In this document: piece by piece, positions 14,348 through 21,957 of the stretch
Layout of the letters: each line of letters starts with the position of its first letter
Position numbering within the stretch: position 1 is the first letter of the stretch
Source: Candidatus Aenigmatarchaeota archaeon
GTDB lineage: Archaea > Aenigmatarchaeota > Aenigmatarchaeia > GW2011-AR5
Direction of reading: 5' to 3'
NCBI GenBank assembly: GCA_016198685.1
Contig: JACQID010000006.1
Span: 62,001 to 126,000 of the forward strand
DNA length: 64,000 nucleotides
The notes under the pieces: model-generated
What the model was told of the DNA's origin: nothing
Database searches by the model: none
The model's input: the letters and a program-made list of their open reading frames with translations, nothing else
Position numbers and translations under genes: made by a program

Positions 14348-15436
14348 ATGCATGATGTCATCATAGTTGGAAGCGGCCCTGCAGGAGGAACTCTTGCTTC
14401 CTTACTTGAAGGATTGGATGTTCTTGTGCTTGAGAAGGAAAAAAATGCCGTGCTCAAGGATTCAGGACTTGTTTCATCGCACTTTACCAAATTCGTTGAA
14501 GATGAAAGCCTCATAGAGGCCGAAGTAACAAGGATGGAAGCAGTGTCGCCATCGGGCAAGACGTTCTGGCTGCAATCAAACGAGCCTTTTGCGTATATCC
14601 TCAAAAGAAAACGATTTTCATATTACCTCAGAATTGAAGCCAAGAAAAACGCCGATATGAAATACGAGAGAGCGCGCGGCTTTGCGCGGACAAGCGGCGG
14701 CGTTGCAGTGGAAACGTCAAAAGGGATGCACGAGGCCAAGATGGTTATAGGATGTGATGGCACGCTTTCAGATATACGCAAGAGCATGGGAATAGAAAAA
14801 CCTCCTATGGTCCCCGGAATATTTTCCAGAACCAAGAATAGGCTTCAGGCAGATGAGATAAAAGTGTTCCTTAACAAATTCTATTCCCCGGATTTCTTTT
14901 CATGGATTATACCCCAGGTAAACGAATACGGTCTCATGACATCAGTAAGACCGAGAGAGAATTTCGAGTATTTCAAGAAAAGCATTGGCGCGCCTGACGG
15001 CGAACTGCACTCATATATGATACCGATGGGCACGACTAAATCGTATTCTGAAAGGGCGCTGCTTGTAGGCGAAGCCTGCGGACAGACCAAGCCTCTTACA
15101 GGAGGCGGAATTATATTCGGGATGAGAGCGGCCCATATGGCCGCTTCAGTCGTGAAGCAGGCGATCGAGAAAAATGATTTTTCTTCCGGGTTTCTTTCTA
15201 GATATGAAAAGTCATGGAAAAGCGAGGTTTCTTGGGAAATAAAGAAGCAGCTCTTTCTGAGGAAAGCCTACAGGAAGATGTCTAACCGGGATATAGACGG
15301 TCTTTTCAGGTCTTTCGGGAGCGACATAGAATCCGTGAACACATTCGACTACGACAAGATTACGCGTTCATGGAAAAATTTGCCGAAGCTGAAGGCTGTG
15401 AATTTCATCCTGAAGAATGCCCATCTGTTTATTTGA
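14348..15436 (+). CDS. Geranylgeranyl reductase family flavoprotein
   Basis: Family members hydrogenate the isoprenoid chains of archaeal membrane lipids or dolichol using FAD. 362 residues. The FAD motif V-G-S-G-P-A-G-G lies at residues 7-14, I-G-C-D-G-T near 135, and G-E-A-C-G-Q-T-K-P-L-T-G-G-G in the second half, the family hallmark. The ATG at 14348 follows GGAAGG by 7 nt and gives the usual MHDVIIVG start; an in-frame ATG at 14309 fits leaderless geometry, so the start is uncertain. Next to N-glycosylation genes, dolichol reduction is an alternative to lipid reduction. Confidence 0.85.
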   Translation: MHDVIIVGSGPAGGTLASLLEGLDVLVLEKEKNAVLKDSGLVSSHFTKFVEDESLIEAEVTRMEAVSPSGKTFWLQSNEPFAYILKRKRFSYYLRIEAKKNADMKYERARGFARTSGGVAVETSKGMHEAKMVIGCDGTLSDIRKSMGIEKPPMVPGIFSRTKNRLQADEIKVFLNKFYSPDFFSWIIPQVNEYGLMTSVRPRENFEYFKKSIGAPDGELHSYMIPMGTTKSYSERALLVGEACGQTKPLTGGGIIFGMRAAHMAASVVKQAIEKNDFSSGFLSRYEKSWKSEVSWEIKKQLFLRKAYRKMSNRDIDGLFRSFGSDIESVNTFDYDKITRSWKNLPKLKAVNFILKNAHLFI

Positions 15437-16376
15437 TAAGACGCTCTGCTTGCATATCGTATTTTCTGCTTATGTAAATGAAGGATAACGCACCCAGCAA
15501 GCTTCCGAACCAAAATGTGGCCGCGCGGAAAATTAATATTGCGGCAACGGCTGTAACGCTGTTAACGCCCAGAGACGCAAGGAGCAGTGAGGCGACAGCT
15601 TCCATCGATCCTATCCCTCCGGGAAGAGAGCTTGCAACTCCTATGATTGTGGAAATTGATATGACGCCGGCGAGAGCAATGAGGGGAAGTTCTTGGCCGA
15701 GCGAGAGAAGCACAAGATAGAGAACAATAGCGTCAAGAACCCAAGGAACTATCGTTGCAAGGAAACTTTTGATAAGCACAGATTTTGAAAATGAAGTTCC
15801 GTAGAATGTTTCAAGAAAACCTGAAGAAATGCCTCTGAGCGGCGGCAGCGTTCTAAGCATCCCGAAAAATTTCTCTCCGAACTTCCTGCGTGTCAAGACA
15901 AGGAGCAAAGTTAGAAAGGCTGCGGCGAATATGCCTATGCCGGCGTAAGAGAAACGCAATAAGTCAGCGCTAAGCGACGCGCTTTGCATGAATGCTGCTG
16001 ACAAGAGTAGCAGGACAAGTATATCCATGATTCTTTCCCACATGATTGTAGGAAGGCTTTTTGCAATCGGAATTCCTGTCACGGTTTTCAAGGCCAGAGA
16101 CTTTGCCGGCTCGCCGGCTTTCCCTGGTGTGAAGTTGCTTATCGTCATGCCGAAGAGCTGCACCGGAAAGAGCGTGAAGTAATCCACCCCTACAAGAATT
16201 TTCCATTTCAGGACGCGGAAGCATACTGAAAGTGCGGAAGCGGCAAGCGCCGCGCCTATATAGACCTTGTTCGCCTCCGATACCGTGCGCAAAAGCGCCG
16301 CCGGATCGGAAAGCCATATGACAGCAGCCAGAAGGCCTATGCTGGCAGCGCTTGCAATAATTTTGAGTTTATTCAT
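15429..16376 (-). CDS. AglD/UPF0104-type membrane protein (lysylphosphatidylglycerol synthetase TM family)
   Basis: 315 residues with about eight TM segments. The P-G-G-I-G-S-M-E-A motif near residue 250 is the family signature, and R-x-L-K-W-K-I-L-V near residue 55 is also typical. Members include AglD-like proteins of archaeal glycosylation and transmembrane parts of lipid-modifying enzymes. Its 3' end overlaps the flavoprotein gene by 8 nt. A TATA-like GATTTAAGG on the minus strand about 24 nt before the ATG suggests a leaderless mRNA. The precise role is not shown by the sequence. Confidence 0.8.
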   Translation of the reverse strand: MNKLKIIASAASIGLLAAVIWLSDPAALLRTVSEANKVYIGAALAASALSVCFRVLKWKILVGVDYFTLFPVQLFGMTISNFTPGKAGEPAKSLALKTVTGIPIAKSLPTIMWERIMDILVLLLLSAAFMQSASLSADLLRFSYAGIGIFAAAFLTLLLVLTRRKFGEKFFGMLRTLPPLRGISSGFLETFYGTSFSKSVLIKSFLATIVPWVLDAIVLYLVLLSLGQELPLIALAGVISISTIIGVASSLPGGIGSMEAVASLLLASLGVNSVTAVAAILIFRAATFWFGSLLGALSFIYISRKYDMQAERLIK

Positions 16377-16465: not shown

Positions 16466-17161
16466 GTGCTGGCAGTGATGATACCTACCTATAACGAGAA
16501 GGATAACATACGGCCGCTAGTGGATGAGATATTCCGCGCAGCCGGGCCGAAAACGATGGTAATCATTATAGACGATAGTTCTCCTGACGGAACCGGGGAA
16601 GTCGCCGACGAGATTGCAAGAAAGCGAAAGGGCGTGGTCGTCATACATCGCACAGAGCGTGGCCGCGGCAGTGCAGGCATACGTGGCTTCCAGGAGGCCC
16701 TGAAGTACAGTCCTGAATGCGTCATTGAGATGGACGCGGATTTTTCTCATGACCCTTCGTATATACCCGCTTTTCTTCGCGAGATAAAATATTCTGACGT
16801 TGTCATAGGCTCCAGAATGGTCGGAGGCGGAATGACAGTTCAGCGAGGTTTTGTAAGAAATGCTATCACATCCTTTGCAGGGTTCGTCACAAGAATTATA
16901 CTTGGCATGAGGGTCATGGATATTCAGAGCGGGTACAAGTGCTATAGGGCAAATGTCCTCAAAAGCATGGATTTTTCACGTTTCATTTCCAAAGGTTATT
17001 CGATAGGTGCGGAGACGCTTTATAGGGCGCACAGGAAAGGATTCTACATGAAAGAGATCCCGATAATATTCAGGAACAGGAAAAAAGGGAAGTCAAAACT
17101 CAGCGTTCAGGAGCTGTTTTCGTTCTTCTTTAATGTTGTCAGAATAAGGATAGGTGTTTAA
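16466..17161 (+). CDS. Dolichol-phosphate mannosyltransferase-like GT2
   Basis: 231 residues, GT-A fold. I-P-T-Y-N-E-K-D-N-I at the start, I-D-D-S-S-P-D-G-T-G near residue 33, and M-D-A-D-F-S-H-D-P (the D-x-D metal motif) near residue 91 match DPM1-type synthases that charge dolichol phosphate with a hexose. The GTG start at 16466 is set by GGAGGGG 9 nt upstream. There is no C-terminal TM domain. It is the first gene of the N-glycosylation operon that includes the membrane glycosyltransferase and STT3. Confidence 0.9.
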   Translation: MLAVMIPTYNEKDNIRPLVDEIFRAAGPKTMVIIIDDSSPDGTGEVADEIARKRKGVVVIHRTERGRGSAGIRGFQEALKYSPECVIEMDADFSHDPSYIPAFLREIKYSDVVIGSRMVGGGMTVQRGFVRNAITSFAGFVTRIILGMRVMDIQSGYKCYRANVLKSMDFSRFISKGYSIGAETLYRAHRKGFYMKEIPIIFRNRKKGKSKLSVQELFSFFFNVVRIRIGV

Positions 17162-17162
17162 G

Positions 17163-18320
17163 ATGCTTGGCGCCGCGCGCGAATTATGGAAGGACGCGAG
17201 TTTCAGAAAGGTTCTGAAGGTCTTTGTTGCCGTCAAAATAATACTGATTATTGTGGCTGCAGGAGCGCAATTCATACCGCAGGAATACACGAACCGGCAG
17301 GATCGGGCAAACTTTATTATTAACGGATGGGCGCAATATGATGCAGCCGCTTACGTTGACATAGCGATGAATGGATATAATCAGGCGTTTGCTGAAGGCC
17401 GCGGCAACTACGGTTGGTTCCCGCTCTACCCATTGCTCATACTCATATTCGGCTTCCTCGGCCCCTATGAGGCAGGGTTTCTGATATCGAATGTGCTCTC
17501 GATTATAGCGATAGGGCTCATATATATGATTGTAAAAGAAGAATTCGGACCTAGCATAGCATATGATACTGTACTGCTGATGTCTTTCTTTCCGACTGCA
17601 TATTTCCTCAATGCGGTGTACACCGAGTCTCTTTTCCTTCTTGAAACCGCTGCATTCTTCTGGTTCATGGGCAAGGGCCGTTATCTTGAAGGAAGTCTCG
17701 CAGGGTTCTTTGCGGCACTGACAAGAACGCAAGGCGCGCTGCTTCTGCTGCCTGCTATCATTATATACTATATGCAGCGGATGAAAAAAGACGGCAAGCT
17801 TGGTTTCGATGCGCTATGGCTGCTGCTGATACCGGCAGGCACGGCAGTTTTCATGGGATATCAGTTCCTTGTAACTGGAAATGCCCTTGCGCAGTTCCAG
17901 ACGCATTCGGAATTCCAGCGCCATCTTTCGCTGCCGACAGACGCGATAATGAACGGCATCAGCGGCCTCATGCAAGGCATTGCAGCATCTGACATTTCAG
18001 GCACGTTCTACCATTCATTCAATCTGTTCATCCTTGTGTTTTTTGCGGGCCTGTTATGGATATGTTATAAAAAATTGAAGCCCGAATACACGGTTTATTT
18101 TGCAGTTTCGCTGATATTGCCGCTTCTCTCGGCGCGTCTTGAGGCCATAAGCAGGTTTTATCTGATGATATTCCCGGCTTTCATAGCGTTATCGCTGGTT
18201 TCAAAGGAAAGGCGGCCATATCTCATGATGCTTTACGGAGTCTTTGCCGTGTTGTTGATACTTTTCACCATAAGGCATGCCAATGAAGACATATTTCTTT
18301 CGGCTATAGCGCCTTTTTAA
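17163..18320 (+). CDS. PIG-V-like membrane glycosyltransferase (GT-C fold)
   Basis: 385 residues with about ten TM segments. Near residue 60 the extracytoplasmic loop has W-A-Q-Y-D-A-A-A-Y-V-D-I-A and then W-F-P-L-Y-P-L-L, the catalytic-loop pattern of PIG-V / GPI-mannosyltransferase II relatives, which use Dol-P-Man. The ATG at 17163 is preferred over a GTG at 17154 because AGGTG lies 7 nt upstream, and it follows the GT2 stop directly. The GT2 product may supply its donor (inference). Confidence 0.8.
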   Translation: MLGAARELWKDASFRKVLKVFVAVKIILIIVAAGAQFIPQEYTNRQDRANFIINGWAQYDAAAYVDIAMNGYNQAFAEGRGNYGWFPLYPLLILIFGFLGPYEAGFLISNVLSIIAIGLIYMIVKEEFGPSIAYDTVLLMSFFPTAYFLNAVYTESLFLLETAAFFWFMGKGRYLEGSLAGFFAALTRTQGALLLLPAIIIYYMQRMKKDGKLGFDALWLLLIPAGTAVFMGYQFLVTGNALAQFQTHSEFQRHLSLPTDAIMNGISGLMQGIAASDISGTFYHSFNLFILVFFAGLLWICYKKLKPEYTVYFAVSLILPLLSARLEAISRFYLMIFPAFIALSLVSKERRPYLMMLYGVFAVLLILFTIRHANEDIFLSAIAPF

Positions 18321-18349: not shown

Positions 18350-19741
18350 ATGGAATTCAATGATAAATGGCCTGTTTTTCTGGCCAGTTTAATAATATTT
18401 GCGGATTTTCTGCTTTACTACGAAGGACAACTGCTTGTTCTGGCAGGGTTAACCGCAATTGCATCTTTAGCATTGCTTTATCGCATTGACGACACAAAAA
18501 AATCTTTTGCAAAGTACTGGCCGATTGCCGCGCTTGTTTTTATCTTCCTTTTTGGAATACATGCAAGAATAGACGGTTATGACTTCCAGTATCTGAGAAA
18601 CATAGACTCATACGCTTTCATGCGCGAGATGCAGATGATAGTGGACAACGGAATACTCCAAACGACCGATCCGCTCTTCTTCCGTTCGCCTTATGAAGAA
18701 ACGCTCACCGCGCCTTTGGATTTCAATCCGCTCTGGGTATTGAGAGCTCCGTACCAGTATCTGGGCGCATATTCATTCATGCTTGTCCGGTCTTTCATGC
18801 CGATGCTTGAATTATGGCAATACCTGATAGTCTTCCCGCCGGTTTTGGCAAGCCTCGCAGCTATACCAATGTATTTCATAGGCAGGGAAATGTACGACAG
18901 AAGAGCAGGCATAATGGCAGCACTGTTGTACATATTTGACATATCCAACTTCCAGCGTTCTTTGGGCGGCGACCCCGATACTGATGCGATAGTAATACTG
19001 ATGCCGGCCCTTGTGATGGCATTCTATCTTTTGATGTACAAGCGGATTGATGCCGGCGGCTTTGACAAGTTCGCCGTCTTGTTTGCAGCGCTGGGCGGAG
19101 TTTGTCTTGCGCTCTTCCATAATGTTTGGGCGGGATACTGGTATACCGTATGGATAATAGCAGGATTCCTTGTCATAAAATTCATAGTAAGCGCAGTGCG
19201 CCTTGGCAGCTTCCAAAAGATGCTTCAGAGCGCAAAGCCGCAACTGCTGGGTTTTGGATTGTTCTTCATGGCCTACTTGATAGTCAACCTGCAGTTCTTC
19301 GGAGCAGATGCCATAATCTCAACTGTTTACGGGCCATTTGAGTATAGCGGATTGAAAAATGAAGAGGGTCGCGCCTTCCCGAATGTTTATGTCTCTGTCG
19401 CTGAACTTCAGCAGGCCGGTGACGTAGTTTCCATAATAAAAAGAGTCACTGGCGTTGATGGTATAGCGTTATGGTTCTCGCCTTTCATGCTTACGCTTTA
19501 TGCGCTCTTTGGGCTCGTTATGCTCGCAGCTTCCGGCCACAAGAGACATCTGGACGGGCTGATAATACTTTTCCTGTGGTTTATTGGCCCCATGCTCGCA
19601 ACACTTGTTGCCATAAGATTCACAATACTTTTCTCGGCTCCGATGTCCATAGGCACGGCAATATTATTTTCCATTGCATACGGCTATGTACTGGGAGAAT
19701 TTGCCAAGCCCGAGCCTGCCAAAACGGAGGGAACTGCATGA
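18350..19741 (+). CDS. Oligosaccharyltransferase STT3/AglB, N-terminal membrane half
   Basis: 463 residues, almost all transmembrane. It carries the catalytic-base motifs of STT3: D86 in N-I-D-S-Y (first external loop), G-G-D-P-D-T-D at 206-212 (second D-x-D-type motif), and S-V-A-E at 349-352, matching the SVSE/TIxE motif. It stops after a TM helix and a short charged tail, before the soluble domain that normally completes STT3. Its TGA overlaps the ATG of the next gene (ATGA) and GGAGG lies 7 nt before that ATG, so the two halves are co-translated. Confidence 0.9.
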   Translation: MEFNDKWPVFLASLIIFADFLLYYEGQLLVLAGLTAIASLALLYRIDDTKKSFAKYWPIAALVFIFLFGIHARIDGYDFQYLRNIDSYAFMREMQMIVDNGILQTTDPLFFRSPYEETLTAPLDFNPLWVLRAPYQYLGAYSFMLVRSFMPMLELWQYLIVFPPVLASLAAIPMYFIGREMYDRRAGIMAALLYIFDISNFQRSLGGDPDTDAIVILMPALVMAFYLLMYKRIDAGGFDKFAVLFAALGGVCLALFHNVWAGYWYTVWIIAGFLVIKFIVSAVRLGSFQKMLQSAKPQLLGFGLFFMAYLIVNLQFFGADAIISTVYGPFEYSGLKNEEGRAFPNVYVSVAELQQAGDVVSIIKRVTGVDGIALWFSPFMLTLYALFGLVMLAASGHKRHLDGLIILFLWFIGPMLATLVAIRFTILFSAPMSIGTAILFSIAYGYVLGEFAKPEPAKTEGTA

Positions 19742-20895
19742 AGGAAGATCACAAAAAAGCTGCTCAAGTTATCGTGAAAGCAACTGCGCCTTTTGCCATA
19801 TGCTTGATAATTGTAGTCGTGATGCGGTATTTCAATCTTGACATGTTTCAGTGGCTATTGCTCGGGATTGCCATAGCCGGCGTCAGCGCGGGCCTCATGT
19901 CCCTAAAGCTGATGGACAGGAAAGTTGCGGGAGCAACAGGGGTATTTTTCATTTCAGTATCGCTCATATTCTTGTTTTACATCTACCCTTCCGGCTACAT
20001 CGCGCAGAGTGGAACTGTTCTTAATGATAATTGGTTTGAGGCGCTGAAGTGGATAAACGAGAACACACCTGAATGCTCGACAGTGGCTACTTATTGGGAT
20101 CCGGGCCATTTCATACGAGCGATAGGCAACAGGACAGTCGTCTTTGACGGCGGCTCGCAAAATCATCTATTCCAGATAAATGAAAGTGGCCCGGACGGAT
20201 TGACAATAGAGAATTATGATAATGGCATCACGCATCTTGTGCAGCACAAAAACGGCATAAGGACCACGGCAAGAATACAGGATATATCGACTACTCTAAT
20301 GACAAGTAATGAATCGCTTGCCGTAGATATACTGAAGGATTACAGGAAATCCGGCTGCGACGAAATCTATTATATAGCCTCTGCCGATCTCATGAGCAAA
20401 TCGGCGTGGTGGACGTATTTCGCGACATGGGCTCCAAACAAGAACGGCAACTGCAGGGTAGGAGGCATTACAGAGCCTAAAGGAGATTGTTACAGTTACA
20501 GTCTTCTTTCGCTTTCCGGAGCCACGCCTAACGGCGAATCCATAATCTATACTTATAGCGCCGGCCAGAATCAGGCGTTCCTGCTGAACTATGATCCGCA
20601 ACAAGACAGATTGCAGGCATATCTTTCCGAAAACAACAATTTATTCAGAATAAAACAAACCTTCTACTTTACCAAAGACGGCAGCGGAGTCCTCTATACA
20701 GTGCCGGATGCAGAGGTTCCGGGAACCGTGTGGGCTGATACCACGAGAAACATTATTATCTACATGCCCCCGCAAATCGAGAACGCGGTATATACAAAAC
20801 TCATGCTTTACAACGGAGTGGGACTTGAGAAGTTTGAATTCGTCAAGGATTGGGGAAGCGAAATCAAGCTTTACAAGGTAAAAATAGAAGAATAG
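19738..20895 (+). CDS. Oligosaccharyltransferase STT3/AglB, C-terminal half with acceptor-sequon domain
   Basis: 385 residues: about three TM segments (17-85), then a soluble domain. Y-W-D-P-G-H at 119-124 corresponds to the W-W-D-Y-G motif that reads the sequon, with Y and P replacing W and Y. D-L-M-S-K-S-A-W-W at 217-225 is in the place of the DK-type motif. The protein has no GT catalytic acids, which are in the preceding gene. A strong Shine-Dalgarno (GGAGG, 19727-19731) fixes the ATG at 19738. An open frame runs further upstream in this phase but lies inside the N-half gene. Confidence 0.9.
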   Translation: MKEDHKKAAQVIVKATAPFAICLIIVVVMRYFNLDMFQWLLLGIAIAGVSAGLMSLKLMDRKVAGATGVFFISVSLIFLFYIYPSGYIAQSGTVLNDNWFEALKWINENTPECSTVATYWDPGHFIRAIGNRTVVFDGGSQNHLFQINESGPDGLTIENYDNGITHLVQHKNGIRTTARIQDISTTLMTSNESLAVDILKDYRKSGCDEIYYIASADLMSKSAWWTYFATWAPNKNGNCRVGGITEPKGDCYSYSLLSLSGATPNGESIIYTYSAGQNQAFLLNYDPQQDRLQAYLSENNNLFRIKQTFYFTKDGSGVLYTVPDAEVPGTVWADTTRNIIIYMPPQIENAVYTKLMLYNGVGLEKFEFVKDWGSEIKLYKVKIEE

Positions 20896-21957
20896 TCAGT
20901 GTTTGATCTCCTTGTATATTTTTTCTATCTGTCTTGCAATCTGCGAGGGGTCATATTTCTTCGCAACCTTTCTTGCGTTTGAAGAAATTCGGCGTATTGC
21001 AGTCGGGGTCAGCGATGCTATGGCATCGCACATGGCTTCTGCATCGTCTGCAAGTATCCCCGTTTTGTTATCTTCTATGAGTTCTGGTATGGCGCCCTTT
21101 TTCGTGGCAATCACAACGCAGCCATTGGCCTGGCCTTCTGCGACTACCCGTCCGAATCCTTCTTCCCATTGGGACGGAACGATAAGGAGCGGCGCTTTTG
21201 CATAGTACTTGCCTGTATTTTCAGTAAAACCTTCCAAAGATATGTTGGCGACCTTCTCAAGAAGCGGGCGTTCCGGACCTTCGCCCAAAACGACAAGTGT
21301 TTTTCTGCCTATGCAGGCAGCAATTGCAGGTAGCAGGCGGGTACCTTTCTGTTCGGTTAAAGAACCCACAAAAAGCACTATATCACTGTCTTTTTTCGCG
21401 ATCTTTGCCGGCTCTATAGGATTGTAAACCGTATATATCTTTTCGTCAAAAACAGGAATATATTTTTTCTTTAGAAAATCGCTTATTGCTATGTAGTGCA
21501 TTCCACTAATGCGCTTCCTTAAGAGCCTTGTATCCCTGAGATGCGCTATTTTATGGGCGCTGATTTTTGCTCCGGACAACGCCAATGCCGATTCGTAATT
21601 ATTCGCGTGAACTATATCAACGTTTTCCTTTTTGCAGAATTTTTCCAGTTCTGCCGCCATTTCGTGGATGAATATCTTTACAGCTCCGCCTAATAAAAAT
21701 GAAAATATGCGCCTGTTGGCGGCGTAAACTGCACGCGAGAGGTTTTTGCCCCGGAAGAACAAGCGTCTGATGCTTGAAAATTCGTGTATGTGAACTTTTC
21801 CGTCCATCCGTTCGGCATTTCCTGAATTCTGATAATTGGGCGTGAGCACATGAACTTCATGGCGTTTTGACAGTTCACGGGCAAGAATAGGAAGACTGAT
21901 TTCAGCGCCGCCCTGAATCACCGGAGGATAATATTCGGCAAGGAACAGTATTCGCAT
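20896..21957 (-). CDS. GT4 glycosyltransferase
   Basis: 353 residues, GT-B fold. The N-terminus has Y-Y-P-P-V-I-Q-G-G-A-E, the C-terminal domain has F-V-G-S-L-T-E-Q-K-G-T near residue 195 and P-S-Q-W-E-E-G-F-G-R-V-V-A-E-G near residue 260, the nucleotide-sugar E-x7-E pattern. It ends directly against the STT3 C-half gene with no gap. CGTTTTAAG on the minus strand about 25 nt before the ATG suggests a leaderless mRNA. Donor and acceptor are unknown. Confidence 0.88.
   Translation of the reverse strand: MRILFLAEYYPPVIQGGAEISLPILARELSKRHEVHVLTPNYQNSGNAERMDGKVHIHEFSSIRRLFFRGKNLSRAVYAANRRIFSFLLGGAVKIFIHEMAAELEKFCKKENVDIVHANNYESALALSGAKISAHKIAHLRDTRLLRKRISGMHYIAISDFLKKKYIPVFDEKIYTVYNPIEPAKIAKKDSDIVLFVGSLTEQKGTRLLPAIAACIGRKTLVVLGEGPERPLLEKVANISLEGFTENTGKYYAKAPLLIVPSQWEEGFGRVVAEGQANGCVVIATKKGAIPELIEDNKTGILADDAEAMCDAIASLTPTAIRRISSNARKVAKKYDPSQIARQIEKIYKEIKH

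Follow-up and report, generated by a model that had tools for sequence, protein, structure and literature searches.

To our knowledge, the catalytic subunit of oligosaccharyltransferase, which transfers glycans to asparagine residues, is regarded as one chain across all three domains. The locus described here raises the question whether this subunit can also be made of two proteins: in a stretch of 64,000 nucleotides from a Candidatus Aenigmatarchaeota archaeon, hereafter the window, the STT3/AglB gene is present as two overlapping genes.

The gene pair and its two products

The first gene, A (18350..19741, forward strand; 463 amino acids, stop codon TGA), covers the transmembrane and catalytic half of STT3/AglB, and the second, B (19738..20895, forward strand; 385 amino acids, stop codon TAG), the C-terminal half. 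These assignments are based on open reading frame calls, alignments and AF2 models, together with a Pfam match for A and an NCBIfam match for B. Stop codon of A and start codon of B overlap in an ATGA (19738..19741, forward strand), and 7 nt before this ATG, within gene A, lies a GGAGG that is the probable ribosome-binding site of B (19726..19730, forward strand). The ATGA is identical, and the GGAGG is kept, in a genome of the same genus (G001). This arrangement had been described in an earlier note on this DNA, and its coordinates were confirmed on the sequence. The same note had proposed translational coupling, which is likely here and wherever else the two genes overlap, but coupling is not essential to the system, since some relatives have the two halves apart or unlinked (see below). 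Part of what the note had named as speaking against its reading was another full-length STT3 elsewhere together with a pair that is not conserved; searches with Pfam STT3 and a profile of A found no second STT3 in the window genome, which is 93.7% complete, and the pair is conserved.

The pair is surrounded by genes for sugar transfer. A probable operon starts with a family-2 glycosyltransferase (16466..17161, forward strand), related by profile matches to AglJ and dolichyl-phosphate hexose transferases. This gene is overlapped by that of a multi-pass protein with a weak Pfam match to PMT_2 (GT-C), located 29 nt upstream of A (17154..18320, forward strand). The convergent neighbour of B is a family-4 glycosyltransferase by Pfam (20896..21957, reverse strand), and more glycosyltransferases and a polysaccharide flippase-like gene follow downstream. 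As far as it can be read from the sequence, this context agrees with an oligosaccharyltransferase role of the pair. In two genera the STT3 pair has an LPG-synthase-TM/flippase-like gene (PF03706) in its vicinity (window 15429-16376, reverse strand; L071:1170-2099, reverse strand), a candidate partner in the handling of lipid-linked sugars.

Protein A matches the N-terminal STT3 family PF02516 with an E value of 6e-22 and 79.1 bits (cut-off 24.5), over positions 27-365 of the 405 in the profile. The NCBIfam profile archaeo_STT3 is shared between the two proteins, A matching its positions 73-239 and B its positions 463-605. The AF2 model of A has a mean pLDDT of 78.6, with low confidence in the external loop EL5 and at both ends. 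Its residues 50-453 superpose on residues 5-453 (TM1-TM12) of AglB from A. fulgidus (AfAglB) with Z scores of 24-27, and 28.5 for 3WAJ, while the best structural score was obtained with residues 9-431 of yeast STT3 (Z 31.5-31.7). ArnT, PMT and PIG-U of the GPI transamidase are also among the structural matches. Protein A is thus predicted to comprise the canonical TM1-TM12 including EL5, and two low-confidence extra helices ahead of TM1.

The residues expected of a catalytic half are present in A, whose profile aligns with AfAglB as far as residue 448. The codon of D86 (18605..18607, forward strand), nearly invariant in 22 A sequences, marks the first DXD motif and corresponds to the metal-binding D47 of AfAglB (PMC8342417). 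The second DXD motif, D210-T-D212 (18977..18985, forward strand), aligns with AfAglB D161/H163 and is invariant in all 22. SVAE, at A 349-352 (19394..19405, forward strand), corresponds to the TIXE/SVSE motif of EL5 (PMC8342417), and its S349 and E352 are again invariant in the 22 sequences. At the outer end of TM12 lies R423 (19616..19618, forward strand), likewise invariant in this set. It aligns with an arginine of AfAglB and STT3A and corresponds to the pyrophosphate-binding R375 of PglB and R404 of yeast STT3; in solved enzymes this arginine on TM12 contacts the pyrophosphate of the donor (PMC7226087).

Protein B gave no match in a Pfam search. Its AF2 model has a mean pLDDT of 88.5, and the PDB matches of this model are almost exclusively oligosaccharyltransferases, PglB with an E value of 9.5e-13. 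Residues 92-385 superpose on AfAglB 496-780 (Z 15.3), and residues 98-383 on PglB 436-713 (Z 18.5-19.4). The model predicts three N-terminal helices followed by an external globular alpha/beta domain. The last helix, B 61-90 (19918..20007, forward strand), corresponds to TM13 by model and superposition, and the two ahead of it, B 2-31 and 36-55 (19741..19902, forward strand), are extra in the model and missing in relatives with a single-helix B. Since A covers TM1-TM12 of AglB and B the residues from 496 onwards, the models place the cut at the cytosolic TM12-TM13 loop. By a rough hydropathy count, the globular domain of B is preceded by 1, 3, 5 or 7 helices among relatives; the number is odd in about 22 of 24, as it has to be if the C-terminal domain is to stay outside. 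According to the models, the 13 core transmembrane helices would be distributed over A and B with the C-terminal domain outside, and the extra helices come on top of these.

Two motifs of the acceptor side are located in B. YWDPG, B 119-123 (20092..20106, forward strand), aligns with the WWDYG of human STT3A and P. furiosus AglB, is the form that this motif takes in the lineage, and is invariant in 24 of 24 B sequences. DLMSK, B 217-221 (20386..20400, forward strand), is the probable DK motif, with D217 and K221 invariant in the same number of sequences. Judged from the sequence, this identity is plausible, not proved, because its D-xxx-K spacing is one residue longer than the published DxxK; the alignment to the solved chains ends before this part. 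The distribution of motifs given in the earlier note, with the acids in A and both YWDPG and DLMSK in B, is therefore correct, apart from this departure from an exact DxxK.

Distribution and history of the split

Separate A and B genes were found in 41 genomes of Ca. Aenigmatarchaeota, which puts the two-gene arrangement beyond chance: 27 belong to the order of the window genome (families f1-f6), 5 to family f9 and 9 to family f11. Archaeon GW2011_AR5 is among the named relatives in the phylum. In the remaining families of the phylum STT3 is mostly encoded in one frame of about 600-870 amino acids, and outside the phylum the STT3 frames were nearly all long among the matches listed in a scan with the A side of 323 genomes, about two thirds of them from outside the phylum. 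A and B co-occur throughout, barring losses at contig edges. The earlier note had regarded the split as fixed, and not as a frameshift or an assembly error, and these 41 genomes, together with the same ATGA and GGAGG junction in G001, support this.

The junction itself varies. Apart from ATGA, relatives have eight-base overlaps, a TAA directly followed by ATG, or short gaps, and the f9 loci (L099-L103), where the cut is in the same loop, have junctions that overlap (ATGAGTAG and similar). In two genomes, G014 and G009, the halves flank a methyltransferase gene (PF08241, E 1.7e-21). This SAM-dependent methyltransferase occupies L069:2120-2779 in G014 and the same gap in G009 (L023), overlapping A at its end and B at its start. 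Four genomes of genus g29 (G151, G152, G042 and G048) have non-adjacent halves, most clearly G151, in which A is located within a contig of 66.7 kb and B within one of 38.4 kb. Short fragments of A or B are also present in genomes with unlinked halves (G151:C22:60980-61132, L135; G152:C24:127-282, L134; G152:C13:8257-8547), and are possibly remnants of duplicated copies from the halves moving apart. In close pairs of genomes dN is far below dS in both halves (for G150-G153 0.05 versus 0.49 in A and 0.04 versus 0.46 in B), so that both genes appear to be under purifying selection, with the qualification that, of the three pairs for which both halves were compared, two have a dS close to saturation.

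A gene tree of 47 sequences was calculated with IQ-TREE, with an assumed root. In this tree f1-f6 and f11 form one group (support 100), the order of the window genome as a clade having a support of only 62, and f9 stands apart, among the single-chain families. This position of f9 implies, on the sequence tree, at least two independent fissions, both in the TM12-TM13 loop. Within the split order is nested (95/80) a genome with a single frame of 862 amino acids, G030 (NC_groundwater_477_Ag_S-0.1um_46_11; L046/L077), which retains three helices before the globular domain, as is typical of many split relatives. Because of this nesting and the retained helices, its single-chain STT3 is a probable re-fusion, which would make at least one in the phylum. 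Another single frame, in G035, is sister to split members of f11 (support 76), where a second re-fusion and a separate fission within f11 are indistinguishable by sequence. Some other STT3 matches were also noted. A 303-amino-acid open frame matches STT3 in a genome of one contig, from a family that is otherwise single-chain (G122:C1:615570-616193). Several genomes of the phylum have weak second STT3-like proteins of about 470-660 amino acids, sometimes near the main STT3 (G010:C8:88626-89408, G043:C5:25644-26120, G085:C1:68529-69044 and others).

A two-chain active site and alternative explanations

Known enzymes hold the acceptor in a clamp formed by EL5 and the pocket of the C-terminal domain, and twisting of the amide is attributed to the acids of the transmembrane part (PMC8342417). 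With EL5 and the acids on one chain and the pocket on the other, the active site must form at the interface. Isolated C-terminal domains of AglB and PglB have been reported to be inactive or impaired (PMC4287180), and together with a site at the interface this makes an obligate heterodimer the best explanation. Based on the sequences and models, we therefore propose with high confidence that A and B form an oligosaccharyltransferase in which both subunits are obligate and the active site lies between them. Protein A would supply TM1-TM12, the metal- and amide-binding acids and EL5, and would hold the lipid-linked sugar, whereas B would supply TM13 together with the external domain, which reads the +2 Ser/Thr of the sequon. 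With EL5 of A on one side and the pocket of B on the other, the acceptor would be held in a clamp between the two chains, and neither protein would be expected to work alone. In the window genome both would be made from one message in roughly equal amounts by means of the ATGA stop-start overlap. Binding between A and B, activity of their complex and the targets of its glycosylation are inferred from these data. A two-subunit version of a single-chain enzyme was also the interpretation of the earlier note, and the 41 genomes and the folds and motifs on both halves make it the best reading.

A different part of that interpretation, a changed acceptor choice through the altered motif, found no support. 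Compared to WWDYG, YWDPG is changed in two of five positions and retains the second W, the D and the G, and homologues in the phylum carry WWDPG, WWDFG and WWDQG. The motif varies independently of the split: WWDPG, with Pro in the fourth position, is widespread among single-chain relatives in the phylum, WWDFG is likewise found among single-chain relatives, two fused relatives have YWDPG, and the independently split family f9 has WWDQG. There is no independent sign of the acceptor either, since N-X-S/T is not enriched in the one S-layer-type protein of the window genome that was considered (11 seen versus 9.7 expected). This likely S-layer protein is a frame of 903 amino acids with matches to S_layer_C (PF05124), located at G000:C6:23901-26465 (L138).

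The junction could be a defect in a normal single-chain gene, caused by a sequencing or assembly error or by a recent pseudogenising frameshift. Frameshifts do occur in metagenome assemblies, and in two relatives the frame is broken inside gene A, by sequencing error or decay (G018, L035/L064; G020, L039/L070). However, the window junction recurs in an independent genome of the same genus, the halves are separate in 41 genomes, six of which have an intervening gene or unlinked halves, and both halves are under apparent purifying selection. We consider the chance of such an artefact negligible, and for the lineage as a whole this explanation is refuted by the conservation, the inserted gene and the unlinked halves. 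It is also very improbable that programmed -1 frameshifting joins the two frames and yields some full-length STT3 from one message. The frame of B is indeed open for 93 codons upstream of its ATG in the window genome, but a canonical slippery heptamer was not seen at the junction by eye, and B has its own GGAGG and ATG. In relatives, moreover, the pairs are separated by a same-frame TAA-ATG, by gaps, by the methyltransferase gene or by being on different contigs, and the insertion in G014 and G009 and the non-adjacent halves in G151, G152, G042 and G048 exclude fusion by frameshifting as a general mechanism. The two proteins might also have parted functionally, with A a transferase of its own and B a regulatory or binding remnant. 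Such a parting would fit the unlinked halves in genus g29 and the existence of GT-C proteins that lack this C-terminal domain (ArnT, PMT and PIG-U), but the residues of the sequon pocket and of EL5 are still invariant on both chains, and A and B are found together apart from contig-edge losses. The probable re-fusion in G030 argues against it as well, because it is sensible only if the halves still act together. On balance we regard a functional parting as improbable, though less so than frameshifting.

How the split arose is a separate matter, and here the two-subunit enzyme is compatible with a split that arose by ordinary drift, as genomes of DPANN were reduced, and that adds no function to those of the single-chain enzyme. 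Split genes are known from DPANN genomes (PMC6349945, PMC3655853), independent fissions within one phylum fit this general tendency, and a pair that works like the one-chain enzyme fits all data. Nothing contradicts this origin, but the extra helices of B and the unlinking leave room for more, without showing more, and we consider drift somewhat better than an even bet. A bolder possibility, which we regard as rather unlikely, is that the break between TM12 and TM13 has made the acceptor-reading part an independently evolving and independently regulated subunit, with its own helices (3, 5 or 7), its own locus in g29 and possibly acceptor modules that can be exchanged while the catalytic A stays the same. 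Prokaryotes would then have an oligosaccharyltransferase in two parts, of a previously unknown kind, that evolved at least twice.

Significance and comparison with known systems

The Ca. Aenigmatarchaeota with the split thus probably build the active site of oligosaccharyltransferase from two chains. This would be a natural and stable two-chain form, in which the donor and acid site and the sequon pocket are on separate proteins, and it offers an experimental handle, as donor side and acceptor side are open to swapping, titration and separate study. The TM12-TM13 loop is marked as a spot where a cut in the STT3 fold is tolerated, useful knowledge for the engineering of glycosylation enzymes, and a case of repeated fission and re-fusion is added to DPANN evolution. 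We found no earlier description of a split AglB/STT3 in the open literature, in which the work on AglB evolution was covered in part and an earlier mention is possible.

Compared to archaeal AglB (A. fulgidus; PDB 3WAJ, 5GMY and 7E9S), the pair has the folds of both parts, the two DXD motifs, a TIXE/SVSE-type motif, the arginine on TM12 and the WD-G core of WWDYG. AglB, however, is one chain with 13 transmembrane helices, whereas here the protein is broken at the TM12-TM13 loop, B has extra helices and YWDPG replaces WWDYG. We therefore regard the pair as homologous to the one-chain AglB class but not as a member of it, because it consists of two genes that are separated or unlinked in some relatives. 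Eukaryotic oligosaccharyltransferase (OST) of yeast and human shares the SVxE-type motif of EL5, and by structural score A is closest to yeast STT3, but OST is multi-subunit through accessory proteins and its catalytic STT3 is one chain. The C-terminal part of bacterial PglB superposes well with B, but PglB is a single chain, has an MI instead of a DK motif and uses an extended sequon.

A gene split with later re-fusions is also known from another step of N-glycan assembly, Alg13/Alg14, and from EpsE/EpsF, which are MurG-like glycosyltransferases (PMC4973528, PMC8993221). The enzyme is a different one there, and the split runs between a membrane-anchor domain and a catalytic domain in the cytosol. 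Nanoarchaeota and other DPANN likewise have fissioned versions of normally single genes in their reduced archaeal genomes (PMC3655853, PMC6349945), but these are mainly informational or soluble enzymes, such as DNA polymerase, reverse gyrase, alanyl-tRNA synthetase and Dph1/2, and we met no oligosaccharyltransferase among the examples described. The split pair is a variant of a familiar enzyme and, in its mechanism, stands close to it.
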